From NCBI RefSeq assembly GCF_011682145.1, contig NZ_WHJH01000003.1, positions 186,001 through 250,000 of the forward strand: 64,000 nt of DNA, written 5' to 3'. Positions 5,894 through 25,407 of this stretch are shown here, in pieces. The position numbers and the translations under genes were made by a program. The notes below the pieces were generated by a model. That model saw only the letters and a list, made by a program, of their open reading frames with translations. It searched no databases and was not told the origin of the DNA. Numbering within the stretch: position 1 is the first letter of the stretch; every line of letters begins with the position of its first letter. This DNA comes from Massilia mucilaginosa. Its GTDB lineage: Bacteria; Pseudomonadota; Gammaproteobacteria; Burkholderiales; Burkholderiaceae_D.

Positions 5894-6673
5894 ATGGATA
5901 TTTTGACGAGCAAGGCCGAGGGCATCCTGACGATCGAATTCAACCGCGTCGAGCGCAAGAACGCGATCACCGGCGTGATGTACCAGGCCATGGCCGACGC
6001 CCTGGTCGACGCCGAAACCGACGACGCGGTGCGCGCGATCCTCATCGTGGGCAAGCCCGAGATTTTCACGGCCGGGAACGACCTGGACGACTTCATGAAA
6101 AATTCGGCCCCGGTCGACGGCGTGCCGGCCGACATGCGCCCGGTGTTCCAGTTCATGCGCGCGCTCTCCGGCAGCACCAAGCCGGTGGTGGCGGCGGTGT
6201 CGGGTGCGGCGGTCGGCATCGGCACCACCTTGCTGATGCACTGCGACCTGGTCTACGCTGCCGACAACGCCAAGTTCTCGATGCCGTTCTCGCAGCTCGG
6301 ACTGTGCCCGGAATTCGCATCGAGCCTGCTGCTGCCGCAGCTGGCCGGTTTTCCGCGCGCGGCCGAAAAGCTGCTGCTCGGCGAAGCGTTCCTGGCGCAG
6401 GAAGCCTACGACATGGGCCTGGTGTCGAAAGTGCTGCCATTGGAAGAACTGCGTCCGTACGCGGCGCGCCAGGCCGCCAAGCTGGTGGCGCTGCCGGCCG
6501 CCTCGATCCGCGCGACCAAGTCGCTGATGAAGCGCTCGCGCAATGCGGCCATCACCGAGACCATGGGCGCCGAAAACGCCTTGTTCGGCGCCATGCTGCT
6601 CGCGCCCGAAGCGAAGGAAGCGTTCACCGCGTTCTTTGAAAAGCGCAAGCCGGATTTTTCGAAGTTTGCGTGA
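5894..6673 (+). CDS. Enoyl-CoA hydratase/isomerase family protein
   Basis: Crotonase-fold enzyme of 259 residues. The oxyanion-hole segments IFTAGNDLDDFM and SGAAVGIGTTLLMHCDLVYA are present, followed by FSMPFSQLGLCPEFASS carrying the acidic residue expected in the active site. It hydrates 2-enoyl-CoA or isomerises double bonds. ATG 5894 follows GGAG with 6-base spacing. As the last gene of the beta-oxidation block it probably supplements the hydratase domain of the FadN-type enzyme, perhaps for unsaturated or short chains (inference). C-terminal Lys-rich residues KRKPDFSKF end the protein. Immediately downstream begins the accessory island. Confidence 0.9.
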   Translation: MDILTSKAEGILTIEFNRVERKNAITGVMYQAMADALVDAETDDAVRAILIVGKPEIFTAGNDLDDFMKNSAPVDGVPADMRPVFQFMRALSGSTKPVVAAVSGAAVGIGTTLLMHCDLVYAADNAKFSMPFSQLGLCPEFASSLLLPQLAGFPRAAEKLLLGEAFLAQEAYDMGLVSKVLPLEELRPYAARQAAKLVALPAASIRATKSLMKRSRNAAITETMGAENALFGAMLLAPEAKEAFTAFFEKRKPDFSKFA

Positions 6674-6701
6674 TACCTTGTTTTGACAGCGCGCCTGCGC
6701 C

Positions 6702-6810
6702 GTTGACTGTCACAGAAGTCGGGATTTTTCTCGCATAAGTCGGGATTTTTTCGCATAAGTTGAACAAAAGTTATTCATGGGGAACTTTTTTTGCATTAGT
6801 TCAAGTATGC
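6702..6810 (+). repeat. Left-end repeat array of island
   Basis: The terminal copy CACAGAAGTCGGGATTTTT (6711-6729) is followed by CGCATAAGTCGGGATTTTTT (6732-6751) and weaker copies beginning CGCATAAGTTGAAC (6753) and GCATTAGTTCAAG (6793). The first three start about 21 bases apart. The same motif occurs inverted at 20195-20330. Confidence 0.7.
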
Positions 6811-7155
6811 GGAGCAAAGACAATCCGCGCCACTAACCACGCCTGAGCCGTGTTGTTGGAAAAGACATCAAACGTTGATGCCCCGAGCTGCTTGCCAATG
6901 ACCTGGCGCCCAACAGCAGCTCGTTTTTGTGCACCATCTGGTGCTGGATCCACGCCGGTGAGCACCTGCAGGTTGACCTGGGCGCCGGCCAGGCGCCAGC
7001 CACCAGCTGGTGCGCATCATCACCAGGTGCAGGCCAATGCGGCGATTGCGCGCGGCGCGCCGCCGGCAGTCCACCATACGAAGAGTAGAGCTACCGTGGC
7101 CAGTTAGATGTATAAGGGCTGGTACTATTGAAAACAAAGGTCCCGTTCATAGCAC
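6811..7155. other. Gene-free stretch inside the left island end
   Basis: No convincing gene. Short open frames exist on both strands, but they have no ribosome site and unnatural, Arg/Ala-rich composition. The region is GC-rich with many short inverted repeats (for example around 6880-7030), unlike the AT-rich terminal repeats beside it, so it may be a remnant of a deleted gene. The 3' end of the minus-strand gene abuts it. Confidence 0.4.
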
Positions 7156-8418
7156 CTAGATATCCCAAATCTCCCCGTTGAAAAGCTGTTCGTCTATCTC
7201 GGGCGGATTCTTCTTGACCGCAGGATGGTTGGCGAACGCTTGGCGGATGGTTCGGACGGAGTCGTACGCCTCGATCACGATGTCCCGCTGCTTCCGGAAT
7301 ATTTCCTGGTCGAACGCGTCGGCATTCACCTTGTGCGCCGGCGCTTGGCGGAGCTTCCGGACTTTCTTGAAGCTGGCGATCATGGCTTTCATGGGGCCTT
7401 CGTCGGCTGCTCGGAACAGCTTGGCGAACCACGCTTCCAGTATCTGCACCGTTCCCTTGGGCTTGACCACGATCTTGCCATCGGCGCGTACCTCGTCGGT
7501 TTCGATTTCCACGTCGTTGCCGAAGAAGGCCTTGTCAATGTTGTCGGACATCATTTTGTCCAGGAGCAGGATGAAGTCGTTGAATTCCGCGACCGTCGGT
7601 CGGAGGAGAAATCCGAACTCCTTGGGGCGGTCCTCGCTGAACGAATTCCGGAACAGCGGGGGGCGTTTCATGAGCGCGCACATCTCATTTATCGTTTGCA
7701 ATTCCATCACGAACGCTTCGAAGATCGAGATCCGCGTTCCCCAAGAACCCTCGATGGAAGACGCATAGTAATCGGGGTGGAGCTTGATGTTCCCGGAGAC
7801 CTCCTTGGCATGCCATACCCGCTGGTGTTCCGGGCTGAGTTTCGAGAGGTAACGCAGGAAGACCGCCACGTACCGGTTCAGGTCGTCGTCGTACGCGAAG
7901 CCGAAGGTTTCGAGAAGTATCTGGTCGTGTTCGGCCATCTTTCCGGATTCGTAGTATGCATCTTCGATGCAGATCTGGCCGTGGATAAAGTCCGTGCTGT
8001 ACGAGTAACGCGGATCGTTCCGGTAGTGTTCCAGGACCGACAGGTCGAACGTCCTGTAGTCGAGCTGCCCCCCGCCCTTGGCCAGCTCCAGCTCGTATGG
8101 GGCCTGCGCGTAGCCGGAGAGGCGAGGTGAACTTGCCAGCTTGCTGGGATGCGGGTAAAGGCAAGTATGGGACGGGTACTCGGCGGAATCGAAGACTTCA
8201 AGCACCTTCGCCGTCGGCATTTTGGAAAAGGGCTTGATGTGGGTGTTGCCGTGGAAGTTGGCGGTCAGGACCTCGTTCTCTATCCCCTTGCGCAGGACGG
8301 AGCGGAACTCGGGCGTATCCACGTCGAAAAAACCTTTTAACGCGTAGATCGGCATGCCGTTGAAATCTCCGGATTCGAAGTATTTCCGTTCCACGGCTTC
8401 GTAGATTTGGTCGATCAT
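7156..8418 (-). CDS. Uncharacterised 420-residue protein
   Basis: I do not recognise a function. The protein is soluble, acidic and apparently helical, without signal peptide or membrane segment. Segments include MIDQIYEAVERKYFESGDF at the start, a Tyr-rich middle (DPRYSYSTDFIHGQ), and a C-terminal charged helix KSFKKVRKLRQAPAHK-like region. Its ATG overlaps the stop of the upstream ribbon-helix-helix-type gene (ATGA), so the two are translationally coupled. Position in the island, directly behind a relic toxin-antitoxin pair, suggests accessory or defence cargo, but that is only context. Codon use is close to the GC-rich host average, unlike the AT-rich genes at 18-20 kb. Confidence 0.75.
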   Translation of the reverse strand: MIDQIYEAVERKYFESGDFNGMPIYALKGFFDVDTPEFRSVLRKGIENEVLTANFHGNTHIKPFSKMPTAKVLEVFDSAEYPSHTCLYPHPSKLASSPRLSGYAQAPYELELAKGGGQLDYRTFDLSVLEHYRNDPRYSYSTDFIHGQICIEDAYYESGKMAEHDQILLETFGFAYDDDLNRYVAVFLRYLSKLSPEHQRVWHAKEVSGNIKLHPDYYASSIEGSWGTRISIFEAFVMELQTINEMCALMKRPPLFRNSFSEDRPKEFGFLLRPTVAEFNDFILLLDKMMSDNIDKAFFGNDVEIETDEVRADGKIVVKPKGTVQILEAWFAKLFRAADEGPMKAMIASFKKVRKLRQAPAHKVNADAFDQEIFRKQRDIVIEAYDSVRTIRQAFANHPAVKKNPPEIDEQLFNGEIWDI

Positions 8419-8816
8419 TTTTCAGTCCTGGTTAGATGCGAAAGTCGCGTGCGGTAGTCGCGGCATCCAATGATACCCGCCGCGCGCGGCAAGACTCCAG
8501 CATTCCCAATCTGATTCTTTAGCGCTGCTGCGCGGTGTGCCAGCCCTGGATCGAGAGGCGCGACCACTTGAGTTCGATTCAATGCTCCATATCGCGCGAA
8601 TACCGCATCTACTTCGTCGTCGGTCGCGAATTCGCCACGGTCCGCAGCGGCAATGGCTAGCTGGAGATCGTCGATCTGCGGGACCCGCCATCCGGTGTAC
8701 TCTCTCAGCGCATCTTCGGTAATCGAGGAGAGCGACTGTCCGGGGACCTTCGAGAGCGCGGAGACGGTGGCCCCGAAGTCGTCGGGCAGGCGCGCGCTTA
8801 CGGTAGCTGTTTTCAT
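8415..8816 (-). CDS. Ribbon-helix-helix antitoxin-like protein with abnormal C-terminus
   Basis: The N-terminal 80 residues look like a CopG/RelB-type antitoxin: a beta strand and two helices (MKTATVSARLPDDFGATVSA, then SITEDALREYTGW), followed by the common LAIAAADRGEFATDDEVDAVFARYG linker that normally ends the protein near residue 80. Here the frame runs on for about 50 residues of unrelated sequence, and a relic of a RelE/ParE-like toxin is found in another frame in the same place. The most likely history is that toxin decay fused the antitoxin to junk. The stop overlaps the start of the next gene (ATGA). DNA-binding autoregulation is expected for the family but was not tested. Confidence 0.7.
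   Translation of the reverse strand: MKTATVSARLPDDFGATVSALSKVPGQSLSSITEDALREYTGWRVPQIDDLQLAIAAADRGEFATDDEVDAVFARYGALNRTQVVAPLDPGLAHRAAALKNQIGNAGVLPRAAGIIGCRDYRTRLSHLTRTEK
8519..8578 (-). pseudogene. Relic N-terminus of a RelE/ParE-like toxin
   Basis: On the minus strand, one frame off the antitoxin, the bases read IELKWSRLSIQGW...QQR and then stop (TAA at 8521-8519). The xELxWSxxAxxD-type start is what RelE/ParE toxins show just after their antitoxin gene, and the position right after ARYGA of the antitoxin is the expected one. There is no start codon left and only 19 residues before the stop, so the toxin is dead. Short match, so moderate confidence. Confidence 0.4.
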
Positions 8817-8913
8817 ACTGGTTGTCTTACAATGTACTACAGGAAACTATAAGCACGGCCCTATTAATTGCAAGGCCGGACTCAGCCAACATTCACAGCC
8901 GGAGCCGCACCGC

Positions 8914-9364
8914 ATGAATTTCCCCTTGGGGCACCGCCCGCTCGGAAAACGGCCGAACGTCCGCAATGAGATAGCGAGGATCAAGCGCGATCCCCTGGAG
9001 CCTTGGTTCGAAGGGTTGGGACACGACTTGAATCCGGTAATCAGTACCGGGTACAGACATATCCCGCTACCGCGACGCGTACCACCTCTACTTCCTCTCG
9101 GCACGACGCTTCCTAACGAACATGTCGGTCGTCGCGCGCTACATGGCTTCGGCGCACTCCGCCAGGAAATACCGGGTGGCTTACACGCCCCACGAGCGGA
9201 AGATTGCCGACAAGTACCGGGAGATAGCGCCATATACCGAACTGGAAATCATCAACTGCTTGATCCATGCAAGGATACTGCTGGACCGCGTAGCCGCCAT
9301 GTCGAGCCGTCACCCGCCGCGCATAACGCTGCCGAAAGGTGGCTTGAAAAGGAAATGCGGTTGA
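8914..9364 (+). pseudogene. Frameshifted small hypothetical gene
   Basis: ATG 8914 follows GGAG at 9-base spacing and opens a plausible protein (MNFPLGHRPLGKRPN...WFEGLGHDLNPVI). Near 9035-9060 the sensible sequence jumps frame: from about 9041 another frame reads RYRDAYHLYFLSARRFLT and NMSVVARYMASAH, ending KGGLKRKCG at 9364, while the first frame turns into Pro/Leu-rich nonsense. Together this would be a basic protein of about 150 residues. Either a one- or two-base indel has broken the gene or two fragments have been fused. Function unknown. The second segment could also be a short independent gene starting at ATG 9122. Confidence 0.4.
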
Positions 9365-9504
9365 GCTATTCTCCACATACGGGCCGTCTGGGCCTGACCT
9401 GCCGCCGGGTCAAAGCAGACGTAGCAAAAAATCTAATCGATCCTTCAATCGAAGGTCGGTGTGTAATCGGTGGACACCGGCCATTTATTGATTGGAGTTT
9501 CGTT

Positions 9505-10272
9505 ATGTCGTCCCTTCCCTTCGTCAAAGCGTCTGTCGCGTCTGTCAAAAATGCACTGCGCGATGAATTTCCCACTGTAGGTTCTGCCCATCTGAGTGAA
9601 GCATTAGCCGCGTCACTTGGTTTCGGCACCCACGCAGCATTGTTGGCCGCATTGCCTAAATTTGAGGCTGATCCGGACTTTGTACTACTCGATGACGAAA
9701 AGTTCGATGCCAAATTATTAGCGCTGGGTCATCAGGCGGACATTGAATTTAGTTTTGAACTGCTGGATCTTCCTGTTCTGCTCATCACGACATGCAAACG
9801 GGCCTACGAGATCGAATATAAGAGTTCGCGGGATAGAGCGTGGCGCAATTTGATTACTTGCGCCGTTAATGAAGGACTGCGTCGGCGCCTGTTTAGTTTG
9901 CGGGCGCATGACAATCGCTGGCCCGGCTGGACTGAACAGCGCGACCAAAGCACGGTCCGCGGGATTGTCTTCGATTTCGAACTGCCAGGCGGGCTTCCTG
10001 CAAAAGCGTATGTCGCTGACGCAGGATTTTCAGAGCTGGCCATAAACGTGGCAGTGTTGCCGACGGAACGCGCAGAGAGTTGGGTGCGCTCATATGACGC
10101 CGGATTTTCCGCTGGAGACGCTTTTGCGGCGAGCTGGCTGGAAAGGGAGCGGGGTGCGTGGATTCAATCATCGACCACCAGTTTCAAGTGCAGGAAGGCG
10201 CTTCTAAGTCAGCTCGCCTCAATTGATGTGAGGCCCGCCGGCTTCGGGGACCGAGGCCGCGTGATCATGTAG
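9505..10272 (+). CDS. Uncharacterised 255-residue protein
   Basis: No function recognised. ATG 9505 has GGAG 7 bases upstream; the frame is open further upstream, but that part belongs to older sequence and lacks natural protein character. The N-terminus SSLPFVKASVASVKNALRDE followed by SAHLSEALAASLGFGTHAAL resembles the start of small accessory-region proteins that begin with a helical pair; the rest mixes beta strands with acidic turns. No signal peptide or membrane helix. A strong perfect hairpin 10 bases past the stop probably ends the transcript. Base composition is moderately lower in GC than the flanking core genes. Confidence 0.65.
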   Translation: MSSLPFVKASVASVKNALRDEFPTVGSAHLSEALAASLGFGTHAALLAALPKFEADPDFVLLDDEKFDAKLLALGHQADIEFSFELLDLPVLLITTCKRAYEIEYKSSRDRAWRNLITCAVNEGLRRRLFSLRAHDNRWPGWTEQRDQSTVRGIVFDFELPGGLPAKAYVADAGFSELAINVAVLPTERAESWVRSYDAGFSAGDAFAASWLERERGAWIQSSTTSFKCRKALLSQLASIDVRPAGFGDRGRVIM

Positions 10273-10281
10273 AGGACACGT

Positions 10282-10318
10282 GACGAAGACGGTGCTGGAT
10301 CCCAGCACCGTCTTCGTC
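10282..10318 (+). terminator. Strong perfect hairpin, probable terminator
   Basis: A 17-base perfect inverted repeat: GACGAAGACGGTGCTGG (10282-10298), 3-base loop, CCAGCACCGTCTTCGTC (10302-10318). It follows the stop at 10272 by 9 bases. There is no T run after it, so it may act as a transcript-stabilising end or a bidirectional weak terminator. Confidence 0.6.
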
Positions 10319-10513
10319 GCATTCAGTCATCGCAGTCGCCCCCATGTCGCGAAGCATTCTGAAAAATCTTGTAGTTCCGAGCGGAGATACTAAGCTCACG
10401 TTGCGATTGGAAATGATTTGACGAGCTAGCATCCAGCGACGCCGGCTGCCAGAGGTGACCAGGCGCGCGTGGAAATTTTTCCCCATGGTTGCAATCCTTT
10501 ATAAGGCACGACA

Positions 10514-11320
10514 ATGAACGAAAATACCCATGATGAAAATCCAGTTGGATCCCCCGGATACCATGCCCTCGATGCTGTTCGATTGCATGGCCGGCTCTAC
10601 CATGCATACCAGAATTGCGTGGGTTTTCGCACTTTGAAAGTGGCTTTTGTCCCACCTGTTCTGCACTGGTACAACTACCTACTTTGGATCACCACCGTAG
10701 TGCCGCCCTTCATCCTCTTTACGCTACTTTATCTTGACTGGAGATTCGCATGGCTAAACCCATTTATACAGGGGGTGGTGATGTACGTCTGTGTCCGCCC
10801 AATCGTCAATAAATGCTTAAGGATGGGGCTTCCAGAAGACTATCGTTCGGTCGGTATCACTGGGAGCGGTACTTCTCAGCCGAGTTACCTTCATTCTTCC
10901 TTGCTGCGTCTCAAGTGGTTCCAGGACAAAATCTTTGCAACTGAAAAGCCGACAAAAGCCCAGATAGAATCATGTATTTCGTTTATTGAACTCGTTGAAA
11001 AGGACTTGCCGACAACAGGTGTCGCGTACTTTCGGCACCCAATCGCCCTTCTGTTGCTAGGCATAGTGGTCTATCTCGTGAATGCGAAAGTCGGGTCAAT
11101 GATCACACTCGCCATCGTGAGCTTCGAAAGGCTTTCAATTTTGATCGGAATTTCTGTGGCTTGGATCTTCGGGATGGGATGGTTAGTCTTCTCGTTGAAG
11201 CATGCAAGGGCAGAAACTCGCTGGATTTTCTTGCGCTATTTGCGTTGGACAGCGCTTTCCATGAGCATGGAAGATGAGTCAAAACCATCGAGCGCTACTT
11301 TGATCTCGGTGGCGGCGTAG
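10514..11320 (+). CDS. Uncharacterised membrane protein, 268 residues
   Basis: Inner-membrane protein with two hydrophobic pairs: WYNYLLWITTVVPPFILF and the following WLNPFIQGVVMYVCV at about residues 55-100, and HPIALLLLGIVVYLV plus LSILIGISVAWIFGMGWL at about 175-230. The loop between the pairs (about 100-170) is charged and probably cytoplasmic. ATG 10514 is preceded by TAAGGCACGACA. No family recognised. GC is clearly below the core genome. A lone two-by-two helix protein in an island could be defence-related, but nothing in the sequence shows it. Confidence 0.6.
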   Translation: MNENTHDENPVGSPGYHALDAVRLHGRLYHAYQNCVGFRTLKVAFVPPVLHWYNYLLWITTVVPPFILFTLLYLDWRFAWLNPFIQGVVMYVCVRPIVNKCLRMGLPEDYRSVGITGSGTSQPSYLHSSLLRLKWFQDKIFATEKPTKAQIESCISFIELVEKDLPTTGVAYFRHPIALLLLGIVVYLVNAKVGSMITLAIVSFERLSILIGISVAWIFGMGWLVFSLKHARAETRWIFLRYLRWTALSMSMEDESKPSSATLISVAA

Positions 11321-11385
11321 CCAGCCAAAGTCGAGACAACCAATTCGTAATCATTACTAGAGCAGTGAAATCCGTATCGGCGGGC

Positions 11386-12550
11386 ATGGATTGTCATGCT
11401 TACGCCTGGTATAAGACGCAAGCAACCGAAATGGAGATCGTGTTGAAGAAGACGGAAATACTTGAGGTGTTCGCGCGTGCCGTTCCTTCGGATCAGCACA
11501 TGCTTCAGATGTTCGCCGCTGCCGCAACAAAAGGCGTGGCTTTGCCATACACGGAAGGTCTCTGTGAAGCGTTGGCATGCATAGATTTTGCCGTACCTGG
11601 GTATGCAGCGGAGATGATTTCTCGAATTGCAAGTGTAAAAGGCATAGGTGAGTCACAGTACGAAAGTCTGGTCCAAATAGCTTCAGAAATATATGCAACG
11701 TGCGGAGCAGTTCAATCGGCCGATGCAGACGAATTTGGCTCTCCCCTTTTTACCCATGAGCCACGGCTAAAAAAAGGGAAGAATCCGGAGTTCGAAGCGT
11801 GTGCGGAAGGCTTATGGTATGCAGTTGAGGTAAAGGCCCCGTAACTGTTCAGCCTCTATGACAGGTAGGGAAAAGGCCTGAAATTTTGCTGAAAAATTAA
11901 GCGAATAAAGGCGTTTTTGCACATTTTTTAAGCAAAATTTGCTGATTTTTGATAGTCCTTCATAGGGGCTGAACAGTTACAAGGCCCCTAGCTTGGTAGC
12001 CCACGGTCGGCGTCGAGCGGTCGCAAATTGGCAACTCACGGCTCGATTGCCAGAGGGCGTTGTTCAACCCGTCGAGGCACCGATGCTACCGCGGGATAAC
12101 CCAGTAAAAGACTTTCTAATTTCCGCAAACGAGAAATTCACTGCATATGAGGAGCTTCGTCCCGATGCCGTTCGGATCCTGACAGTTGTCTGGGACGATC
12201 ATGTCCAAGAAGTACTCGCGGCGCTCCTAAACCCGATGTCTGGACTGCTGACAGAAAATTCGTTTCACAAGGATCCTAACGGAGAGGCAGTAAGATTTCC
12301 GATGGTCGATGCGATCCTCCTGTGCCGGTACCAAATTCAGCTTCATGCATTGATGAGGGATCAGCCACTGATCGATAATGAGCTGCCGTTCGGTTACCAT
12401 CACTACGAGTTTCCGCCTAAGGCCTTGATTCAGAATCCGCATGGACGGCGGTTCCCGCCTGAGCTTCTGCATCCGTTGAACGCGACAAGGATAGATGACT
12501 GTCTTGGCGCGGAATACAGCCCCAACATCGATATTGTGATGTGGGTCTAG
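11386..12550 (+). pseudogene. PD-(D/E)xK-like protein gene split by a MITE
   Basis: Two open segments (to 11844 and from about 11989) become one continuous frame of about 338 residues if the MITE at 11841-11980 and one copy of its 8-bp duplication are removed. The insertion falls just after EVKAP in ACAEGLWYAVEVKAP, a Glu-x-Lys strand of the type seen in PD-(D/E)xK nucleases; an Asp-Glu-Phe-Gly segment lies about 40 residues earlier. The downstream half (WDDHVQEVLAALLNPMSG, HHYEFPPKALIQNPHGRRF) has no family I recognise. As it stands the upstream part stops within the MITE at TAA 11842-11844. Start could be GTG 11365, ATG 11386 or ATG 11431. Confidence 0.7.
11841..11980. mobile_element. 140-bp MITE with IS66-like ends and 8-bp target duplication
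   Basis: The ends are inverted repeats beginning GTAACTGTTCAGCC and agreeing at 21 of 22 positions (one T/C difference). The flanks are the same 8 bases, AAGGCCCC, at 11833-11840 and 11981-11988. GTAA-type ends and an 8-bp duplication fit the IS66 family, so this is probably a non-autonomous derivative of such an element. A second inverted pair inside (AAATTTTGCT and AGCAAAATTT) makes the whole unit fold on itself. There is no coding capacity. Confidence 0.85.
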
Positions 12551-12569
12551 AGGTTAGGTTGTTCTGTCG

Positions 12570-12590
12570 AAAGTCTAGTAAAGACTTTTT
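12570..12590 (+). terminator. Rho-independent terminator after split gene
   Basis: AAAGTCT (12570-12576) pairs with AGACTTT (12582-12588) and the T run continues to 12590. It lies 20 bases past the stop at 12550 and just outside the IS3 element end. Confidence 0.65.
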
Positions 12591-12630
12591 GGAGGTCTGA
12601 GGTGTACTGTCAATAGCGGACACTCTTGTT

Positions 12631-13492
12631 TCAGGCCGCCTGTCGCTGTTTGCTGAATTTTTCGGCAAACAGCGCTGGCGGAACATTGCCGAGGCCCGAG
12701 TGGCGCCGCTGGCGGTTATAGAAGCTTTCGATATATTCCTGAATGGCCGCTTTAGCGTCGGCCCTTGTCGCGTAGCGCTGGTGATGTACCAGCTCGTTTT
12801 TCAGGCTGCCCCAGAAGCTTTCCATCGGCGCATTGTCGTAGCAATTCCCCCTGCGCGACATGGAGGACTGCATGCCGAATTGCTTCACCAGTTTTTGATA
12901 GTCGTGAGCGCAGTACTGGGTGCCACGGTCGGAGTGGTGGATCAGCCCAGGCGCGGGGCGCTTGTTGCGCACGGCCTTCCAGAGCGCCGTTGCCGTCAGC
13001 GTTTGCGTCATGCGTTCGTCCATCGCGTAGCCCACCAGCTCGCAGGTGAAGACGTCCTTGATACCGGCCAGGTAGAGCCAGCCCTCGCCGGTGGCGACAT
13101 ACGTAATATCAGTCACCCAGGCTTCATTCGGCCGGGTTGGCGCGAAGGTCTGGTTCAGCAAATTCTCGGCCACGGGCAAGGTCATGGTTTGAATTGGTGG
13201 TGGCCTTGAATTTGCGCTTCTGCTTGCAGCGCAAGGCGAGCTCGCGGCGCAGTCGCACAATGCGGTCCCGGCCTGCTGGAAAGCCCTGCGCTTCCAGTTC
13301 CGGCTGCATGCGCAGCGGCCCGTAGGTCTGGCGGCTTTGCGCATGGACGGCCTCGATGGCGACCTTCAGGCGCGCATCATCCTGCGCCCGCTGCGACAAC
13401 TTGCCCTGCGTCCATGCATAGAAGCCGCTGCGCGAAACCTCAAAGACGCGGCACAGAACGGTGACGGGATACTCGAGTCGTAGTTGTTTCAT
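12631..13492 (-). pseudogene. IS3-family transposase OrfB, frameshifted
   Basis: DDE transposase of the IS3 family, about 286 residues if intact. The N-terminal part is MKQLRLEYPVTVLCRVFEVS, and the HTH_21-like region YGPLRMQPELEAQGF follows. The catalytic core is in a different frame: WVTDITYVATGEGWLYLAGI (first Asp), HHSDRGTQYCAHDYQ (second Asp) and NCYDNAPMESFWGSLKNEL (Glu). The shift occurs at about 13185, around KFKATTNSNHD, where the gene has one base too many. OrfB starts at 13492 with an ATGA overlap to orfA. The frameshift means this copy cannot make a normal transposase. Confidence 0.85.
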
Positions 13493-13705
13493 GACCGCGT
13501 ACTTGGCAGCGACTCCCGCGCAAAGTACGCTGCCGCCTTTTTTACGATATCGCGCTCCATACGCGCCTCTGCGAGCTCCTTGCGCAGCTTGGTGACCTCG
13601 GCCTCGAGCTCCGGTGCGTATTCCGGCGAACGTGACCGGTCATTCCGGGGAACGTGACCGCTGCGCATGAGATGGCGTTACGCGGTCAAATTCTAATCCC
13701 TGCGG

Positions 13706-14479
13706 TCACGATGGGTCGATATTTTTCTCCTTTTTAGCCGCTTTTGGCCGTTGGGCGCGTAGGGAATCACCGGTCAGCGTGAAGCGGTGGTTGCGCTGCA
13801 TGACGCGGTCCAGGATGGCGTCGGCGATGGTGGCGTCGCCGATCCAGGCATGCCAGTGTTCGACCGGCAATTGGCTGGTGATGATGGTGGCCTTGTTGCC
13901 TGCGCGGTCGTCGATGATCTCCAGCAGATCCGAGCGCGTCATGCCGTCAATGGTCCCCATGCCCCAATCGTCCAGGACCAACACGTCAGTCTTGGCCAGT
14001 TGCAGCAGCCATTTGCCGAAGGCGCCACTGCCGTGCCGGATGCGCAGTTCTTCCTGCAAGCGGGGTACACGCTGATAGATCGCGGAGTATCCACGCCGGC
14101 AGGCGTACTGCGCCAATGCGCAGGCCAGCCACGACTTGCCGGCGCCGGTTGGGCCGGTGACCAGGACGCTGTGGCCGGCGCTGACCCAGTCACACAGGGC
14201 CAGACTCATCACCTCGCGCCGGTCGATGCCACGGCCAGCACGCGCGTCGATGTCCTCGATCGCGGCCTGTCCATATTTGAGGTGCGCGTTCTTGAGTAGT
14301 CGCACCAGCTTGCGGTCATTGCGGGCGTGGACCTCGCGGTCGACCAACAGCGCCACGCGCTCTTCGAAGCTCAACGCGGTCATGCCGGGTTGGGCCAGTT
14401 GTTCTTCCAATCCTGCTGCCAGGCCATCCAGTTTCAGGGTGCGCAGTTGCGCCAGGGTGGTGTGCATCATCATCGCCAT
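13706..14479 (-). CDS. istB: IS21 helper ATPase IstB
   Basis: AAA+ ATPase of 257 residues that assembles with the IstA transposase and target DNA. Walker A is VTGPTGAGKSWLACALAQ (about residues 107-124); Walker B is VLVLDDWG, and the sensor region is ATIITSQLPVEHWHAWIGD. The N-terminal helical domain MHTTLAQLRTLKLDGLAAGL is the usual IstB start. It lies 30 bases downstream of istA, the standard IS21 order. The frame is intact from start to stop, with a basic C-terminus. Identification is secure from motifs and partner gene. Confidence 0.97.
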   Translation of the reverse strand: MAMMMHTTLAQLRTLKLDGLAAGLEEQLAQPGMTALSFEERVALLVDREVHARNDRKLVRLLKNAHLKYGQAAIEDIDARAGRGIDRREVMSLALCDWVSAGHSVLVTGPTGAGKSWLACALAQYACRRGYSAIYQRVPRLQEELRIRHGSGAFGKWLLQLAKTDVLVLDDWGMGTIDGMTRSDLLEIIDDRAGNKATIITSQLPVEHWHAWIGDATIADAILDRVMQRNHRFTLTGDSLRAQRPKAAKKEKNIDPS

Positions 14480-14509
14480 CTTCCTTATTATTTATATTGT
14501 TTATATTGT

Positions 14510-16012
14510 TTATTGGTAGTAGTCGGGGCCGCGCAGGTGCACGTGTTCTGGGCTGACCCATTCGTCGGCTACCACGGGCACGCTTTGGTCGCGGTTGTTT
14601 TTCAGGATGTCGTTCACGTGGCGGTACTGGCAGGCGCCGATCTGCAGGGCCAGCATGCAAGCCGCTTCGAGGCGCACCTTGCCATAGCGCTTGGCCAGCG
14701 ACAGCAGGCCAAGGCAGGCGCGGTAGCCGTGCTCTGGATGCCTGTTCTCGGCCATCAGCCGCGTCACCTCCTCGGCGGTCGCCGGGCCGATGCTCTCGCC
14801 CCGGTGGATCAGGCGCTGCGGCGTCCATTCCATGTGCGCGCGGTGCGCGGCCGGCATGTGCGCGGGCGTGGTTGTAAAGCCGCCGACGCGGGTGTTGCGG
14901 GCGTGGCTGGCGACCCGCTGGCCACGATGCAGAAGCTCGACCACGGCTGTGGTGATGCGTGCTTCCAGTACTTGACCGACCAAGGTTTGCGGCACGCTGT
15001 AGCGGTGGCGCTCGACCTCCACGTGATAGTCGATGTGGACCTTGACGGTCTTGAATCGAGCCATCTCGTAACGCTGTAGCGGGAGAGCCCACAAGGCTGG
15101 CGCATCGATCTCGGCGAAGGTGCTGGCACGGCTGCCAGGCAGCTTTTGGAAGGGCTTGTCGTTGAGCCGCGCGAGCAACGGCGCCATAGCCTGATTGACC
15201 TCGTGCACGCTGCCGAACTGCTGGTGGCGCAGACGCGCCATGATCCAGCGCTCGACGATCTGCACCGCCGATTCGGCCTTTGCCTTATCCTGTGGATGGT
15301 AAGGGCGTGCCGGCAGGATCGAGGTGCCGTAGTGGCGCCCGAAGTCGAGCACGGTGTCGTTGCCGCGCGGTTCATAGCGGTTGGCGTGCGAGATCATCGC
15401 CTTCGGGTTATCGGGAACGATGAGCTGCGTGACGCCGCCATAGAAGCTCAGCGCGCGTGCCGTCGACTCAAGCCAGTCGGCCATCGTTTCGCGCGGCGTG
15501 GCGCAGGCGTAGGTGTAGCTCGACGCCCCCATCGAAGCGACGAAGATGTGGGCACGTCCGCCGTCGGTGAGCGCGATGGTGGGGCCTGCGTAGTCGATGA
15601 ACAGCTTTTCACCGGCGCGGTGCACCTGCCGCATCGACCGCTTGAGTTGCTTGGCGAAGCGGCGGTAGTTTTCGCAGTATTGCGAGTACGCGTAGGTCTG
15701 ACAGTCCGCGTAGTCGGCGCGATGCTCCTCCCACAGCAGCATCAATGTCATGCCTTTGCGACGCAGCTCCTGGTGCAAGCGGCCATAGTCGGGTTGCACA
15801 TAGTCTCGTGCCTTTTGGGAGCCGACCAGCAGACGCCGCTCCAGCGCCGCCTCGTCCATGCCTTGCACTGTGGGCCAGTCCAAGCCCGCCGCAGCTGCCA
15901 GGCCCGCGTACTTTGTGACCACACCTTTCGACAGCCCCAGCGCGTCGGCGATCTGCTGGTGCGACAGTTTGGCATCAAGCTTGAGCCGTAGTACGTCCTT
16001 AATCTTACGCAT
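14510..16012 (-). CDS. istA: IS21 transposase IstA
   Basis: DDE transposase of about 500 residues. ATG 16012 follows AAGGA with 5-base spacing and gives MRKIKDVLRLKLDAKLSHQQ, an N-terminal helix-turn-helix that binds the end repeats. The open frame extends upstream to 16114, but that part is unlikely to be translated. The RNase-H-like core has LFIDYAGPTI (first Asp), LIVPDNPKAMISHANRYEPR (second Asp) and HPQDKAKAESAVQIVERW (Glu). The C-terminal beta-barrel and tail follow. All catalytic acids are present, so the enzyme looks functional, unlike the IS3 transposase it interrupts. Confidence 0.95.
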   Translation of the reverse strand: MRKIKDVLRLKLDAKLSHQQIADALGLSKGVVTKYAGLAAAAGLDWPTVQGMDEAALERRLLVGSQKARDYVQPDYGRLHQELRRKGMTLMLLWEEHRADYADCQTYAYSQYCENYRRFAKQLKRSMRQVHRAGEKLFIDYAGPTIALTDGGRAHIFVASMGASSYTYACATPRETMADWLESTARALSFYGGVTQLIVPDNPKAMISHANRYEPRGNDTVLDFGRHYGTSILPARPYHPQDKAKAESAVQIVERWIMARLRHQQFGSVHEVNQAMAPLLARLNDKPFQKLPGSRASTFAEIDAPALWALPLQRYEMARFKTVKVHIDYHVEVERHRYSVPQTLVGQVLEARITTAVVELLHRGQRVASHARNTRVGGFTTTPAHMPAAHRAHMEWTPQRLIHRGESIGPATAEEVTRLMAENRHPEHGYRACLGLLSLAKRYGKVRLEAACMLALQIGACQYRHVNDILKNNRDQSVPVVADEWVSPEHVHLRGPDYYQ

Positions 16013-16112
16013 ATTGATCCTTGGTGCGGGCACGCTGTTTCCAGTCAAAAAGCTGGGAGCGTACCCGTTAGGTTGCAAAATGCGTAACACCATTACTGCG
16101 CTGTACGACGCC

Positions 16113-16262
16113 ATTCCGGCATCGTGACCAGTGATTCCGGTATCGTGACCGCTGATTCCGGAAGATGCTCGAAATCGGTCACGTTCGCCCGGAATGGGTG
16201 GTCACGTTCAAACGGAATGACTGGTCACGATGCCGGAATCACTGGTCACGTTCGTCCGGAAT
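16113..16262. repeat. Array of IstA-type binding repeats at the IS21 right end
   Basis: Six copies of ATTCCGG-n-GTGACC are packed here: two pointing right (16113-16129, 16134-16150) and four pointing left (16177-16195, 16200-16218, 16223-16239, 16244-16262), starting about 21-23 bases apart. The left end of the element carries two copies (from 13618). Multiple terminal repeats are normal for IS21 elements; the opposed pair of arrays at this end is less usual. Confidence 0.75.
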
Positions 16263-16897
16263 ACCCACTCCGGAACGGAACGGCTGCCAGGGGCCACCTT
16301 GGGCGACGTGCCATGCCTCGCCGCCGCAACCCAGTTGGCCAACGTTCCTTTGGGAATCGTCAGGCGCAATGAGGCGTCTTCCAACGTGAGGCCCTGCGTC
16401 AGAACCAGTTTCACGGCTTCTTCCCGAAGCTCCGGGGTGTATGTTTTTGAGCGTGTCATAAAATTTCTCCAGTTGATGAAGTTTACCAAACCAGAGTGTC
16501 CGAAAAAGTCAGGTTACCTCAGTTTGTCGCGTCCAGTGCTGCCGTAAGTGCGTTGAGTTTTGCGGCAGCCTTCATGTCTTTTGCTAGTCGAGCGGAGTCC
16601 TTCCGCGCCACGGCCAACTGGGCGGATTGGAGCCTGAAAGCTACTAGCAGCCCCCAGACGGTAAAAAGTCCGATGAGGGGATTCAATGTCCCGCCCATGT
16701 AGTCACCGAATTGCCCCCATGTGGCTTGGTCCCCAACGCCTTGGCTACCGAACGTATGGAAGTATGCGTACGCGGTAACACCGAATGCGGTCACCAGCAC
16801 CGTAAAGATCATCGGCGGCACACTCTTCAACGCGAAGTTATAAATGAATCGCCCCGGGTTTGAAGGAGGCTCCAACATTTGAGAAAATGGAGCCACC

Positions 16898-17218
16898 ATG
16901 AAAAAATCGAAATACTCTCCTGAAGTGATGGAACGCGCCGTGCGCATGGTCGAAGAGGCTGGCAGCCAGTACGAGTCGCAGTGGGCGGCCATCACATCCA
17001 TCGCAGCCAAGATTGGCTGTACTGCGGAAACGCTCCGTCGCTGGGTCCGCCGGCACGAGCGGGACACTGGCCGACGAGAGGGTGTCACCACGTCCGAAAC
17101 GGAGCGGGTCAAAGCGCTGGAACGCGAGGTGCGCGAGTTGCGCAAGGCCAACGAGATCTTGCGGCTGGCCAGCGCGTTTTTTGCCCAGGCGGAGCTCGAC
17201 CGCCGCTTCAAATCGTGA
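16898..17218 (+). CDS. IS3-family OrfA
   Basis: 106-residue DNA-binding subunit. The helix-turn-helix begins [20 protein letters not shown], then [17 protein letters not shown], followed by a leucine-zipper-like helix [20 protein letters not shown] that mediates multimerisation in the family. ATG 16898 lies inside the left end of the element with GGAG-like bases upstream. The stop TGA overlaps the GTG start of orfB. A T6G run at about 17175-17181, close to the end of orfA, is a candidate -1 slippage site for making the OrfAB fusion. Confidence 0.93.
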
Positions 17219-18120
17219 GAGGTTTTATCGACCAGAACCGCCACGCTTACGGGGTCGAGTCGATCTGCAACGTGTTGCAGGTTGCCCCGTCCGGCTACTG
17301 GCGTTATGCCGCGCAGCGACGTAACCCTGACTTGCGCTGCCGGCGTGCCAAGATCGATGAGGCACTTGCACCTGAAATTGAGCGCGTCTGGAATGCCAAT
17401 ATGCAGGTCTACGGGGCCGACAAAGTCTGGCGGCAATTGCGCCGCGAAGGAACCGACGTTGCTCGATGCACGGTTGAGCGATTGATGCGCCGTGCTGGAC
17501 TGCGAGGCGTGATGCGGGGAAAAGTAGTTCGGACCACGATCGGCAATGCCGCGGCACCATGCCCGCTGGACCGCGTCAATCGTCAGTTCAAGGCACAACG
17601 GCCGAACCAACTCTGGGTGAGCGATTTTACTTATGTTTCGACTTGGCAGGGCTTCGTCTACGTGGCCTTCGTGATCGACGTGTTCGCACGGCGAATCGTG
17701 GGCTGGCGCGTGAGCAGCTCGATGCGTACCGACTTCGTCCTGGATGCCTTGGAACAGGCCCTTTATGATCGTCAGCCTGAACGGGATGACTCGTTGATTC
17801 ACCATAGCGACCGTGGTTCGCAATACGTCTCTATCCGCTACAGTGAGCGCCTTGCTGAAGCTGGCGTTGAACCGTCTGTGGGAAGCAAGGGCGACAGCTA
17901 TGACAACGCCCTGGCCGAGACCATTAACGGCTTGTACAAGGCAGAACTGATCCACCGCCGTGCTCCTTGGAAGACGCGCGAAGCCGTTGAACTGGCAACG
18001 CTGGAATGGGTATCTTGGTTCAACCACCACCGGCTGCTAGAACCACTAGGCTACATTCCGCCGGCTGAAGCTGAGGCAAACTACTTTCGACAACTTTCCG
18101 AGCAGGCCATGACGGTCTGA
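17215..18120 (+). CDS. IS3-family transposase OrfB
   Basis: 301-residue DDE catalytic subunit starting at GTG 17215 ([20 protein letters not shown]). The frame is open further upstream, but there it only overlaps orfA out of phase. The catalytic core shows [20 protein letters not shown] (Asp), [15 protein letters not shown] (Asp) and [19 protein letters not shown] (Glu). C-terminal [20 protein letters not shown] is typical of the IS3 family. The frame relation to orfA is -1, matching the programmed-frameshift expression used by this family. Appears intact and possibly active. Confidence 0.95.
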
Positions 18121-18443
18121 CTCACGCCAAAAGGCCTCCCATAATTTCGGGGCGATTCAAAAGAGTCATTGTCGGCATTTAGTTGCTAAAAACACCATGG
18201 CAGTACAAATTGCAGCGGTAGGGGGCAAACCATAGCGATCTTCACCTCACAGGACCGCGCTCTCGCTCTTTGCACACCGCGCGTTACAAAAACATGTTGA
18301 TATGTATCACTTCCGCAACAAACTGCATGATAAAAAAGAATTTTGAGAAAAATTGTGCGATCAGTAACGAATGGCTTTAATATCATATTGCCAATTACTC
18401 CCACCTTTGGGTAAATGTTTTTATAGGACAAATAGGAAATTAT

Positions 18444-19253
18444 ATGCATGATTGTCGATTTAGAATTCGAGCTGCATTGGCAGTTGCGTTGATTTGCGCA
18501 AGTTCTTTTTCTTGTGCGGCTGAAGTGCTGGATCCGGACGGTGCCCTTGCATCTTTCGTAAAACGACCATCGTTGACGATTAACGACTCGACACAGTGGT
18601 CGACCGCAATTAGCACCTTAGTGGGCTCTTACATTACCAAAGAGAACGGGGTGATAATGCTGCAAGGGAAGGGGATAGGAACGACCACTCCAGCCTTGCA
18701 AGTTGATCTAAAGGATGGCGAGGTGTACCGAGCGCTGATCAGCCAAAAGCAGACCGTCGGACTAGATATTGTTGCATTTTTTAAATTCAACAGAAGCAAG
18801 GAATTTCTTAACGAGTTGGTCATTACTGATTTGATTTCCGCTACGGATCCAACACTGAAACTGGATTCGTGCATTGCTAATCGTCCGGCTGCACTTGCTA
18901 GTTCTAAGTATTGGTGCATTACAGCCATTACATTGTCCAAAATAACTACGCGTAAGTATAAGAAAACAAATAACACGGCAAAAGGCACGTACACTATCGC
19001 TACGGCCGAAGGTACCTTTCAAACCGACAATAACGTCGGGGGAGTGGAGAAAATTGCGAGCATCAGCGTCTACGGTCCCATTTTGAATGGCGTATTAGCT
19101 CCGGTTGATCAACCTGTAGTGATTGCTCCGGCAGTTATCAACAAATCGTTTACTGGTCCAAAAACTGCTGCCAAGATAGATTCAAAGCTTTTTGTACCAA
19201 AAATTAACGAACTAGAAGGTGCAAAATTAATCGTGCCTGGAGTTTCTCGTTAA
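18444..19253 (+). CDS. Exported protein of unknown function, AT-rich
   Basis: 269 residues. A Sec signal peptide is clear: basic HDCRFRIR, hydrophobic AALAVALICASSFSC, cleavage probably after CAA. The mature part is rich in Thr, Ile and Lys with beta-strand character (KGTYTIATAEGTFQTDNN), and has two Cys-containing segments (LDSCIANRP, SKYWCITAI) that could form a disulfide. ATG 18444 follows AGGA in an AT-rich leader. No family recognised. Its base composition is far more AT-rich than the core genes, as is that of the next gene, pointing to recent acquisition. It may form a pair with the downstream lipoprotein, 129 bases away. Confidence 0.75.
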   Translation: MHDCRFRIRAALAVALICASSFSCAAEVLDPDGALASFVKRPSLTINDSTQWSTAISTLVGSYITKENGVIMLQGKGIGTTTPALQVDLKDGEVYRALISQKQTVGLDIVAFFKFNRSKEFLNELVITDLISATDPTLKLDSCIANRPAALASSKYWCITAITLSKITTRKYKKTNNTAKGTYTIATAEGTFQTDNNVGGVEKIASISVYGPILNGVLAPVDQPVVIAPAVINKSFTGPKTAAKIDSKLFVPKINELEGAKLIVPGVSR

Positions 19254-19382
19254 ACTGGTTCAGATATCAGCTGGCTTCGCGGCGATTTGTATAGCGGTGA
19301 GTATGATATCTTATTCAAATTCACCGGAATCCCGCGACTGATTCCTCGATCGGCTCATGAATAATTGAGATGAGACATTGCG

Positions 19383-20024
19383 ATGACAAAATTTTTCAGA
19401 ACCGCTCTAGGTGGAATCTGGCTTTCTTTTCTATTGATTAGCTCGGGATGCACGAGTAATCAAATTGCCAGCAAAACCTGCAGCAATTTGCATACAGAAA
19501 TTTGCGCTGGTAAAATAGTAGCACCACAGGCTTCCATTGAGAATATTCGCTCCGGTGTTCGGGTTGCAATAGACGCTATCTATTCTTTGCGATTTGAAAA
19601 AACGCTCAACGAATTTTACATAAAGAATGCAAAATCCGGACCGCATTCTGCTGCCTGGGTTGGATTTGATGCTGAAACCGTTGCAAACCAACTTAGGACA
19701 AGTATCAAAAATGTTGAAATCGTGACCTATGGCGGTCTTTGGGCTTTTGTGCTGCGCTTCGGCCCAGCACAGAATATAGCTTATGACGGTGATGGCAATG
19801 GACCGATTCGCCTTAATGAATGGGCTCTTCCGCGATCCATTCCATCACTCGGAAACACAGTTGGACATGAAGTGGCACATAAGGTAGGACTAACACATCC
19901 AAGCAGTAGCATCAATAGAGCTGTGGCCAATTGTGAACCACCCTATGTCATAGGTGCATTAATCGAAAAATTAGCCCAGGAAAATACTCTTCCGGACCTC
20001 GAAATTACGTGCAATTCCCTCTAG
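19383..20024 (+). CDS. Lipoprotein with HExxHxxGxxH metzincin-type motif
   Basis: 213 residues with a lipoprotein signal peptide (LISSGC, lipidated Cys about residue 23). Residues 162-172 read HEVAHKVGLTH: His162, Glu163, His166, Gly169 and His172 match the full HExxHxxGxxH zinc signature of metzincin peptidases. The upstream Asp-rich turn YDGDGNGPIRLNEW could bind calcium. A Met-turn is not evident after the motif, where PSSSINRAVAN follows, so this is a candidate peptidase rather than a known family. AT-rich like its neighbour. The TAG stop is part of the CTAG duplicated by the adjacent MITE. Likely anchored in the outer membrane or periplasm. Confidence 0.7.
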   Translation: MTKFFRTALGGIWLSFLLISSGCTSNQIASKTCSNLHTEICAGKIVAPQASIENIRSGVRVAIDAIYSLRFEKTLNEFYIKNAKSGPHSAAWVGFDAETVANQLRTSIKNVEIVTYGGLWAFVLRFGPAQNIAYDGDGNGPIRLNEWALPRSIPSLGNTVGHEVAHKVGLTHPSSSINRAVANCEPPYVIGALIEKLAQENTLPDLEITCNSL

Positions 20025-20122
20025 GGAAGTGCTGATTTATTCACTTTTCGAATATTCGCCCCCTTTAGAATCAAAGGGTTACACGCAAAATTCTTGAAAA
20101 TATTGAATAAATCAGCGCTTCC
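20025..20122. mobile_element. 98-bp MITE with IS5-like ends and CTAG duplication
   Basis: Inverted ends GGAAGTGCTGATTTATTCA (20025) and, from 20122, GGAAGCGCTGATTTATTCA differ at one position. CTAG flanks both sides (20021-20024, 20123-20126). A 4-bp YTAR duplication and GGAAG-type ends fit non-autonomous derivatives of the IS5 family. It sits exactly at the stop codon of the lipoprotein gene, so the protein is unchanged. Confidence 0.85.
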
Positions 20123-20194
20123 CTAGTGTTGCCGTTCAGTAATGGCGGCAAGCTTATACAGACCTGAGGGATGAGTGCCAAAAAATAGGCAATC

Positions 20195-20330
20195 TGAATA
20201 ATCCCGACTTATGTGAGATTTCGTTGAATAATCCCGACTTATGTGAGATTCAGTCCCAGCTTATGTGGGATTTTTCTTGTTAAGTTATTGATTTAGGTGA
20301 TTTCCGATCCCGACTTCTGTGAGACTCAAC
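20195..20330 (-). repeat. Right-end repeat array of island
   Basis: Two identical 26-base units at 20195-20220 and 20225-20250 contain ATCCCGACTTATGTGAGATT. A diverged copy lies at 20253-20272 (GTCCCAGCTTATGTGGGATT), and the terminal copy at 20307-20330 contains CCCGACTTCTGTGA. All face the opposite way to the left array at 6702-6810. The terminal copies on both sides have C where the internal copies have A. The rest of 20127-20544 shows no gene. Confidence 0.75.
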
Positions 20331-20544
20331 GTGCGCGGCCTGGCAAGGCAGGCGCCGCATAAAGTTATAAAAAATCTCACATTTCAATCGACTAATATTG
20401 CCAAATAGACTATTCTTATCAAACGGCTGAGCTAGCGTAGCGCGGCCGATCGGGGAGCGCTGCGAATCGCGCTCCGGCTTTCGGATAAGACGGTGTCGGG
20501 TGGACGCGTCATGCATCCACCGTCACGTTGAGGAAGCGCTGTTC

Positions 20545-21663
20545 ATGAAGATTGTCGTCGATTCCAAGCACCTGGCAGCCGATATTGCAGTGGCACTGGA
20601 CAATGCGGGGCGCGAGCACCTGGTCATCGTCGCCAAAAGCACCTGGTCGATTCCCGAACCTGGAGAACGTGCACGCCCGCTGCCGCCGCAGCCGCTGGTC
20701 CAGGCCGATATCTATGCCGGCCAGCCCGGCGCCAGCGCCATGCTGTACGGCGCCGACTTTGCGCGCTTCAAGGCGCGCTGCGATGTCCTGTTCAACGCCA
20801 GCGCGCATGCGCCCGATAACCTGCCGGTACCCGAACTGCTCGTGGCATGGCAAGTTGGCGCGCTGCGCAAAGGCTTGCGTGTCCTCGGGCCGCGCACCTG
20901 GCGCAGCAAGATGGGCTTGCTGTCGCTGAGCAAACCGGAAGCGTTTACGACCCAGCCGCTGCACTATGGCTTTGCCTTCGGGGGAACCCGTATTTTCCAG
21001 AAAGAGCAGGCCGAAGCCGTGTACGAAAGCTATCCGGATAACCCGGCCGGAATCGGCTGGGCCGGAGCGCGCACGCGCGCGCAGCTCGACGGCGCGCCTG
21101 CCGCGCAACTCGAAGCGATGGATGACCCGCTCCGCAGCGCCCAGGGAAAGCATGCCGCCGCCGCCTTTTCCGCCATCGGACGCCACTGGCCGCCGCGCAA
21201 GCAATATGGCGGTACCTACGATGCTGCCTGGCGGCGCGACGTGTTCCCCCTGCTGCCGGAAGATTTCGACGAACGCTTTCACCAGTGCGCCCCCGAGGAC
21301 CAGCAGATGGCCTACCCCGAGGGCGGCGAGCCGGTCGTCTTGCGCAACATGATGCGCGGCCGTCCCGATGTGCGTTTTGCGCTGCCGCGCATGAAACAGC
21401 AAACGGTGCGCGTACTGCGCACCGACTACAGCAGCAGCGTACTCGAAGCGCTTGCCGACACGCTGTATTTTGAACCGGACGAACAACGCTTTTCCGTGGT
21501 CTGGCGGATCAGCACCCCACTCAAGCGGCGCTTGCAGGAAATCGACACGGTGGCGGTCGGCCCGGTCGACCCCGGCTGGTGGCAAGAAAAATCGCTGGGC
21601 CTGGGAGCTGGCTGCGGCGGCTGCGGCGCTGCCGCGGCGGATGCCGGCGCGATGCCGGCATGA
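20545..21663 (+). CDS. DUF2169-type T6SS accessory protein
   Basis: 372 residues. The N-terminus (VIVAKSTWSIPEPGE, then ADIYAGQPGASAMLYGADFA) and ARFKARCDVLF match the DUF2169 family, found next to PAAR-domain effectors of type VI secretion systems and thought to help load effectors on the spike. ATG 20545 follows GAGGA with 10-base spacing; the frame is open from 20500 but without a ribosome site. It heads a five-gene operon with the next gene overlapping by ATGA. The end is an unusual Gly/Cys/Ala-rich stretch (GAGCGGCGAAAADAG). No signal peptide, so cytoplasmic. The structural T6SS genes are not in the window. Confidence 0.85.
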   Translation: MKIVVDSKHLAADIAVALDNAGREHLVIVAKSTWSIPEPGERARPLPPQPLVQADIYAGQPGASAMLYGADFARFKARCDVLFNASAHAPDNLPVPELLVAWQVGALRKGLRVLGPRTWRSKMGLLSLSKPEAFTTQPLHYGFAFGGTRIFQKEQAEAVYESYPDNPAGIGWAGARTRAQLDGAPAAQLEAMDDPLRSAQGKHAAAAFSAIGRHWPPRKQYGGTYDAAWRRDVFPLLPEDFDERFHQCAPEDQQMAYPEGGEPVVLRNMMRGRPDVRFALPRMKQQTVRVLRTDYSSSVLEALADTLYFEPDEQRFSVVWRISTPLKRRLQEIDTVAVGPVDPGWWQEKSLGLGAGCGGCGAAAADAGAMPA

Positions 21664-22763: not shown

Positions 22764-22774
22764 ACAGGAACACC

Positions 22775-24394: not shown

Positions 24395-24410
24395 TGAAGA
24401 GGAGTTGGCT

Positions 24411-25391: not shown

Positions 25392-25407
25392 GCGGGAGCG
25401 CGCCACC

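Follow-up and report, generated by a model that had tools for sequence, protein, structure and literature searches.

How does a stretch of DNA that ends like a transposon come to lie behind a conserved gene when nothing on it matches those ends? The question is raised by an island in Massilia mucilaginosa (assembly GCF_011682145.1, contig NZ_WHJH01000003.1, positions 186,001 to 250,000; this whole stretch of 64,000 nucleotides is called the window), which begins just after a gene that we take to encode an enoyl-CoA hydratase. Very probably, in our judgment, the island is a non-autonomous Tn7-type element with ends of the I-F3 class and the hydratase gene as its attachment site, which either is mobilized in trans or has lost its genes. 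The argument is built on the following features.

6701-20331, no strand: whole element, 13,631 bp, delimited by inverted termini, flanking duplication and GC contrast
6696-6700, no strand: left copy of the 5-bp duplication, TGCGC
20332-20336, no strand: right copy of the 5-bp duplication, TGCGC
6701-6767, plus strand: R-type end, terminus CGTTGA, sites at 6710, 6731 and 6751 (offsets 9/30/50)
20200-20331, minus strand: L-type end, terminus CGTTGA, sites at 20306, 20252, 20230 and 20200 (offsets 9/63/85/115)
20281-20293, minus strand: match to the consensus WATCARNNNNTTR for integration host factor (IHF), a predicted site, at offset 38 of the L-type end
5894-6673, plus strand: presumed enoyl-CoA hydratase gene, putative attachment gene, stop codon 27 bp before the element

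The preliminary description of this DNA reported an inverted repeat of 24 bp at both ends of an interval at 6702-20330, backed by further copies of its motif, with C in the terminal copies and A in the inner ones. These observations stand: the repeat measures 25 nt (6701-6725 and 20307-20331, 92% complementary), the span moves outward to 6701-20331, the further copies resolve into an array of three sites at one end and of four at the other, and the base difference is CAGAAG in terminal versus CATAAG in inner copies (C versus A on the other strand). The 5-bp target duplication that it had proposed to look for is also there, as TGCGC on either side, and the GC content of the island is 0.549, versus 0.633 and 0.645 in the flanks. 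Exact copies of AAGTCGGGAT occur in the window at 6716 and 6737 (plus strand) and at 20201, 20231 and 20307 (minus strand), that is, in the arrays only. With one mismatch allowed, this 10-mer is found six times in the window versus 2.84 expected, and 10 of 100 shuffles reach six; the count is not significant by itself, and the significance comes from clustering and length. With a 17-bp site matrix, seven positions in the window score above 14, all within the arrays, and none does so in the reversed window; the matrix was made by hand from listed sites, the window's among them, so that their scores are circular. Independent of the matrix are the site spacing in genome G586, the spacing of the L end on contig C196 of M. 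cavernae (except for its last site) and all of the IHF offsets given below. The island's own genome holds one match per array.

Do these ends recur elsewhere? A plasmid search found an end of the island's left-hand type on Janthinobacterium lividum plasmid NZ_CP049829.1 (84% over 93% of a 151-base query). Among 392 genomes of the family, the site pattern without the terminus occurs in 17 (reversed control, one place); real ends are confined to G000, G469 (J. lividum HSC-65S10) and G493 (M. cavernae), and the other 14 genomes have single sites only. A broader pattern that includes the terminus gives 14 places in eight of these genomes and none in the reversed control, adding G298, G494 and G586 and missing G471 (M. 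frigida). Eleven of the 14 places belong to elements at the hydratase gene; the exceptions are G586, M. cavernae C196 and G409, the last of which has no second site and is read as chance. A scan of the genome collection returned eight stretches, three of them real (M. frigida, M. cavernae and J. lividum HSC-65S10) and five without the second site. Matches were found in 2 of 17 genomes in a same-genus search, and an order-level search of 300 genomes, with a pattern that was too strict, matched the own genome only. Viral contigs gave no match to the strict pattern and six to a loose one, without a second site in the bases inspected, and a match on a Vibrio campbellii plasmid was dropped on its E-value of 3 and its annotation alone. 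We count five two-ended elements of 1.7 to 13.6 kb, three of which have an exact 5-bp duplication.

Window: 13,631 bp, duplication TGCGC, exact
G298: 4,701 bp, duplication CCGCT, exact
G494 (L205:1415-4502): 3,088 bp, duplication CCGGC, exact, with L-type ends on both sides
G302: 1,730 bp, duplication ACCGG, one base off on the left
G586 (L208:1839-9950): 8,112 bp, flanks AAAAA and CAAGA, mismatched

Because the duplications are exact in three elements, the element boundary is fixed. The first base of the terminus is C in the ends read, and homology between the copies read begins at CGTTGA. Six ends, all CGTTGA, were found without demanding the terminus (two in the window, one in G469, two in G493 and one in the plasmid copy), and reading behind the hydratase gene gave three more (G471, G302 and M. 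cavernae); the broader pattern itself demands CGTTG. The layout behind it is stereotyped, with a site core of CATAAG(T/A)TGAGAT or CATAAGTCGGGAT. L-type ends have sites at offsets 9, 62-63, 84-85 and 114-115 in the window, G298, the distal end of G494, M. cavernae C196 and G586 (where the first site is weak, with a score of 8.0); the spacing agrees within 1 bp in five of six ends, the exception being the proximal end of G494 (9/63/93). The IHF consensus, taken from excerpts of PMC10201428, stands at offset 38 in six of six L-type ends versus none of ten R-type ends, and the L end of G302 has lost the portion in which it would lie. Complete R-type ends have sites at 9, 30 and 50-51; the third, or the second and third, are lost in four of ten.

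R-type arrays for which no partner end was found lie on the J. lividum plasmid and in J. lividum HSC-65S10, M. frigida and M. cavernae, and we read them as the outcome of partial deletion or of contig ends. In M. cavernae (L043, L045), R-type ends lie 26 bp past the hydratase gene and then about 360 and 890 bp further out, in two sequence subtypes behind the same gene, and on another contig only AACAC separates an R end from the L end placed back to back with it, as if by successive insertions at one site. The contigs of this genome are broken by insertion sequences. On the J. lividum plasmid, positions 203294-229029 (L222) are annotated with a MobH relaxase and a long tra set, yet the plasmid is typed as non-mobilizable in PLSDB; tyrosine recombinases near the plasmid copy had suggested a recombinase-in-trio reading, which was given up in view of the duplications and site arrays. 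As for cargo, the G494 element encodes a protein that resembles ice-binding proteins and has a PEP-CTERM tail, below the curated cut-off of the model, and the open reading frames of the G586 element resemble, by eye only, a fragment of a secondary-metabolite cluster.

Where do the elements land? In seven genomes, spread over four genera, an end follows the hydratase gene at 24-29 bp; the distance from stop codon to terminus is 27 bp in the window, 24 in G471, 29 in G469, 25 in G298, 27 in G302, 26 in M. cavernae and 26 in G494. Seven carriers is a lower bound, with most loci unread among the 318 of 392 family genomes in which the hydratase protein is found at E 1e-90. Of the 30 best hydratase loci, read downstream, four have ends (window, G471, G302 and M. 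cavernae) and 26 do not, three of the latter with sequences that may be relics of earlier ends: CGTTGAGT in G482 (L093), 26 bp past the stop codon, a single site in G681 (L112) and GCGAAATTTCGCATAA in G361 (L113). The R-type end is the one nearest the gene in six of the seven carriers, the L-type end in G494. The spacer between stop codon and terminus mostly differs in sequence between copies and the terminus is constant, and we read the copies as repeated insertion, not as one inherited event. A plasmid search with the 3' end of the gene returned 68 records, and 10 of 20 among the matches listed are annotated as being of the enoyl-CoA hydratase type. No 13-mer of this 3' end occurs inside four of the elements; a guide could sit on the missing partner.

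What, then, does the island carry? Its genes and insertion sequences (the IS3-type and IS21-type names are our assumption) are these.

7156-8418, minus strand: cargo open reading frame, 420 amino acids, no family match
8415-8816, minus strand: cargo open reading frame, 133 amino acids, no family match
10514-11320, plus strand: cargo open reading frame, 268 amino acids, no family match
11365-11844, plus strand: cargo open reading frame, 159 amino acids, no family match
11993-12550, plus strand: cargo open reading frame, 185 amino acids, no family match
18444-19253, plus strand: cargo open reading frame, 269 amino acids, no family match
19383-20024, plus strand: cargo open reading frame, 213 amino acids, no family match
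12597-16522, minus strand: IS3-type element with open reading frames, split by the IS21-type one, outer arms 12597-12631 and 16488-16522 (74% complementary)
13627-16254, minus strand: IS21-type element inside the IS3-type one, with inverted arms and genes at 13706-14479 and 14510-16114
16845-18159, plus strand: second IS3-type element, with inverted arms and rve and HTH_21 matches in 16981-18120

The seven cargo frames have no family match in Pfam, PADLOC or NCBIfam. The IS21-type gene at 14510-16114 matches Mu-transpos_C_2 and rve, and the transposase genes of both kinds are enclosed by inverted repeats of their own that are distinct from the island termini. Just inside the L-type end, at 20021-20126, the two 28-nt arms of an inverted repeat are separated by 50 nt and may form a small mobile repeat in their own right. 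To the right of the island (20500-26870) the genes resemble, by eye only, a type VI secretion accessory cluster.

Is there a Tn7-type machinery elsewhere in the carriers? The island's own genome has no match to the TnsA, TniQ or Mu-transpos_C models, and neither have G493, G469, G298 and G494; TniQ is also unmatched in G302 (the TnsA and TniQ models read through stop codons). That is, five of the seven hydratase-site carriers have no detectable Tn7-type machinery. G302, G471 and G586 do have Tn7-type genes, and ends are absent from 15-20 kb around one locus in G302 and two in G471 and from about 3 kb around the others. The G302 genes (L121:9335-13893) are Tn7-type tnsA, tnsB and tnsC, in a genome without a TniQ match and with a contig end nearby; its TnsA and TnsB match Tn7 structures in the PDB. 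The TniB model was uninformative, matching 13 of 14 controls. On the J. lividum plasmid, no L end was found in the 340 kb read, and the 300 kb scanned beyond L018 contain neither an L end nor an annotated tns gene (about 17 kb of the record are unread). As regards cas genes, the own genome has no TniQ match, and no separate search for cas genes or CRISPR arrays was made. Overall, no autonomous partner transposon was found in the genomes and loci searched.

We assign the ends to the Tn7 branch and to the I-F3 type because the fixed distance from the gene, the asymmetry of the ends and the position of the IHF consensus occur together. From these features we infer the enzymes, the binding of IHF and the target selector of the system. 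We posit that a TnsB-like transposase would bind the three close sites of the R end and the four spread sites of the L end, and that IHF would introduce a bend between the first two sites of the L end. Cleavage would occur at CGTTG, and the ends would be inserted at a target cut staggered by 5 bp. The insertion point would be set by a selector, either a TnsD-like protein or a guide RNA, that reads the 3' end of the hydratase gene and directs the element, with its R end leading, to a position 24-29 bp past the stop codon. Either the genes for these steps were never aboard or they have been lost since, and the chance that the elements move in trans is about even.

Could each copy instead be what is left of a once autonomous I-F3-type transposon that arrived with its genes and lost them through deletion and the insertion of IS elements, with no movement in trans? 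This is a strong contender, which we place a little short of an even chance. Insertion sequences do lie inside the elements, several copies have halves missing, and gene-free copies sit in genomes without Tn7-type genes. However, five two-ended elements that differ in size and cargo are all gene-free, three of them with exact duplications; the G298 element, searched in six frames against Pfam at E 0.01, gives IS3-type matches only; and TnsA and TniQ models that tolerate stop codons are unmatched in five carrier genomes. More tentatively, and with somewhat less confidence than we give to decay, we suggest that the copies may be a class of short, transposase-less betaproteobacterial elements moved in trans by an unseen I-F3-branch transposon that has the CG terminus and homes to the hydratase 3' end through a protein or a guide RNA.

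It is improbable that the ends belong to another multi-site DDE type (Tn5053/Tn402, IS481 or IS21) outside the Tn7/I-F3 branch. Tn5053-type elements, too, have multi-site ends and 5-bp duplications, and the island does contain an IS21-type element; against this, the inner IS21- and IS3-type genes are bounded by their own repeats, the distance behind one gene is constant, and IHF offset and spacing agree with an I-F3 element. That the arrays are a conserved intergenic element of a fatty-acid operon, as seven copies behind the same gene might suggest, is hardly credible given the 26 of 30 best orthologue loci without an end (three with possible traces), the mostly variable spacer before a constant terminus, the plasmid copy, the two sequence subtypes in one genome and the 5-bp duplications, which contradict it.

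Several observations weigh against a Tn7-type element with I-F3-class ends at a hydratase attachment site. For comparison, plasmids were searched with a fragment of the Tn6677 TnsB and three records were fetched (Aeromonas, Photobacterium and Vibrio penaeicida), all annotated with tnsA, a Mu/DDE transposase, TniB, TniQ and type I-F cas genes; the Photobacterium and V. penaeicida records gave no complete L end in 40 kb read, so the I-F3 likeness rests on one element, that of the Aeromonas salmonicida plasmid pAsmA, plus papers. The terminus is CG in the island family and TG in pAsmA. The G494 element has L-type ends on both sides, despite the poor function of two left ends reported for VchCAST in excerpts of PMC10201428. 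The duplication of G302 is one base off and the flanks of G586 are unmatched; G586 and M. cavernae C196 are away from the hydratase gene in the stretches read, and no L end accompanies the plasmid copy within the 340 kb read. In M. frigida, TniQ is matched several times, with short stretches read around the matches, and a partner may exist there. Finally, the TnsA model PF08722 matches 92 of 392 family genomes, and 110 loci around a subset of these matches (30 read at about 1.5 kb and 80 at about 3 kb per side, less at contig ends) contain no array of these ends and only two single sites scoring above 15; the family's Tn7-type genes were dropped as the partner on these grounds.

The preliminary description had called the island a non-autonomous or decayed transposon without a matching transposase, and the multi-site ends, the duplication, the missing Tn7-type genes, the separate repeats of the inner transposases and the kin at other loci bear this out. 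A full-length relative with TnsABC, which it had proposed to look for, was not found, and neither was a clean empty site for this insertion: at none of the 30 hydratase loci do the roughly 1.5 kb read contain the right flank of the island downstream of the gene. It had regarded separate occurrence of the two arrays as grounds for abandoning the idea; R-type arrays without a partner that we could find do occur, on the plasmid and in the three genomes named above, though the terminus is unchanged in them and all but the plasmid copy and that of M. cavernae C196 follow the hydratase gene. Of the Tn7-, Tn5053- and Mu-like ends that it considered, the Tn7 branch with I-F3-type ends is favored and the other types less so.

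Would such elements have been seen before? As described in excerpts of PMC8649781, a large survey of Tn7-like elements starts from tnsB and then seeks the surrounding ends, and gene-free elements escape it for that reason. The term "enoyl-CoA" is absent from the main texts of PMC10293859 and PMC8649781. Among the papers listed by searches on Tn7-like elements with their attachment sites and cargo, on non-autonomous Tn7-like elements, on Tn7 together with enoyl-CoA hydratase, on Tn7-like elements with Massilia or Janthinobacterium and on I-F3 attachment genes, none deals with this site or with such elements as judged by title or opening of the abstract, with subscription literature mostly outside that coverage. 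From the ends alone, a family can be recognized in Massilia, Janthinobacterium and genera related to them; its architecture is of the I-F3 class, its terminus is CG, and its landing gene is outside the five attachment genes named in excerpts of PMC11406308. Should a partner exist, its transposase would be of the I-F3 branch but follow a changed end rule, its target selector would be a different one, and it would show that cargo is spread in nature by gene-free Tn7-type elements; the stereotyped end layout is an exact search key for it.

How close is the likeness to known systems? In the pAsmA I-F3 element (L259), the L end has sites at 9/65/88, versus 9/63/85/115 here, the R end has sites at 9/30, versus 9/30/50 here, and the IHF consensus lies between the first and second L sites at 39, versus 38 here; the site core is CATAAGTTGACAT, versus the two cores given above, ACAAC stands outside both termini, and the duplication is likewise 5 bp. 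In VchCAST, according to excerpts of PMC10201428 and PMC13370975, the IHF site is between L1 and L2 and the termini are 8 bp. Of the marks of I-F3 ends, then, the island family has the IHF consensus between the first two L sites and R sites about 21 bp apart, and in the ends read CGT takes the place of a TGT terminus; ends other than TGT are reported for some I-F3 and I-D elements (PMC11406308, in excerpt), and a CG terminus is unusual, not unheard of. Unlike I-F3 elements, the island has no tnsA, tnsB, tnsC, tniQ or cas gene that we could find (cas genes were not searched separately). In excerpts of PMC11406308, I-F3 attachment genes are guaC, yciA, ffs, rsmJ and parE and the hosts are gammaproteobacteria, versus a hydratase gene and betaproteobacterial hosts here.

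The island termini also differ from the repeats of the inner IS21- and IS3-type genes. Tn5053/Tn402-type elements share multi-site ends and a 5-bp duplication with the island. They target plasmid resolution sites (PMC11406308, in excerpt), and the island is without tni genes. Because core genes and a guide are absent, we do not file the island as a CRISPR-associated transposon; it is CRISPR-transposon-like in its ends. With Tn7 it shares inverted, asymmetric site arrays that are spaced differently at the two ends, a 5-bp duplication and insertion close behind a conserved gene at a constant distance, with the R end facing that gene. Tn7 inserts 25 bp behind glmS. That gene is given as the conserved Tn7 target in excerpts of PMC11406308; the island differs in target gene, in terminus (the ends were not compared letter by letter) and in the core genes tnsB and tnsC, with tnsA and tniQ/tnsD, which Tn7 has.

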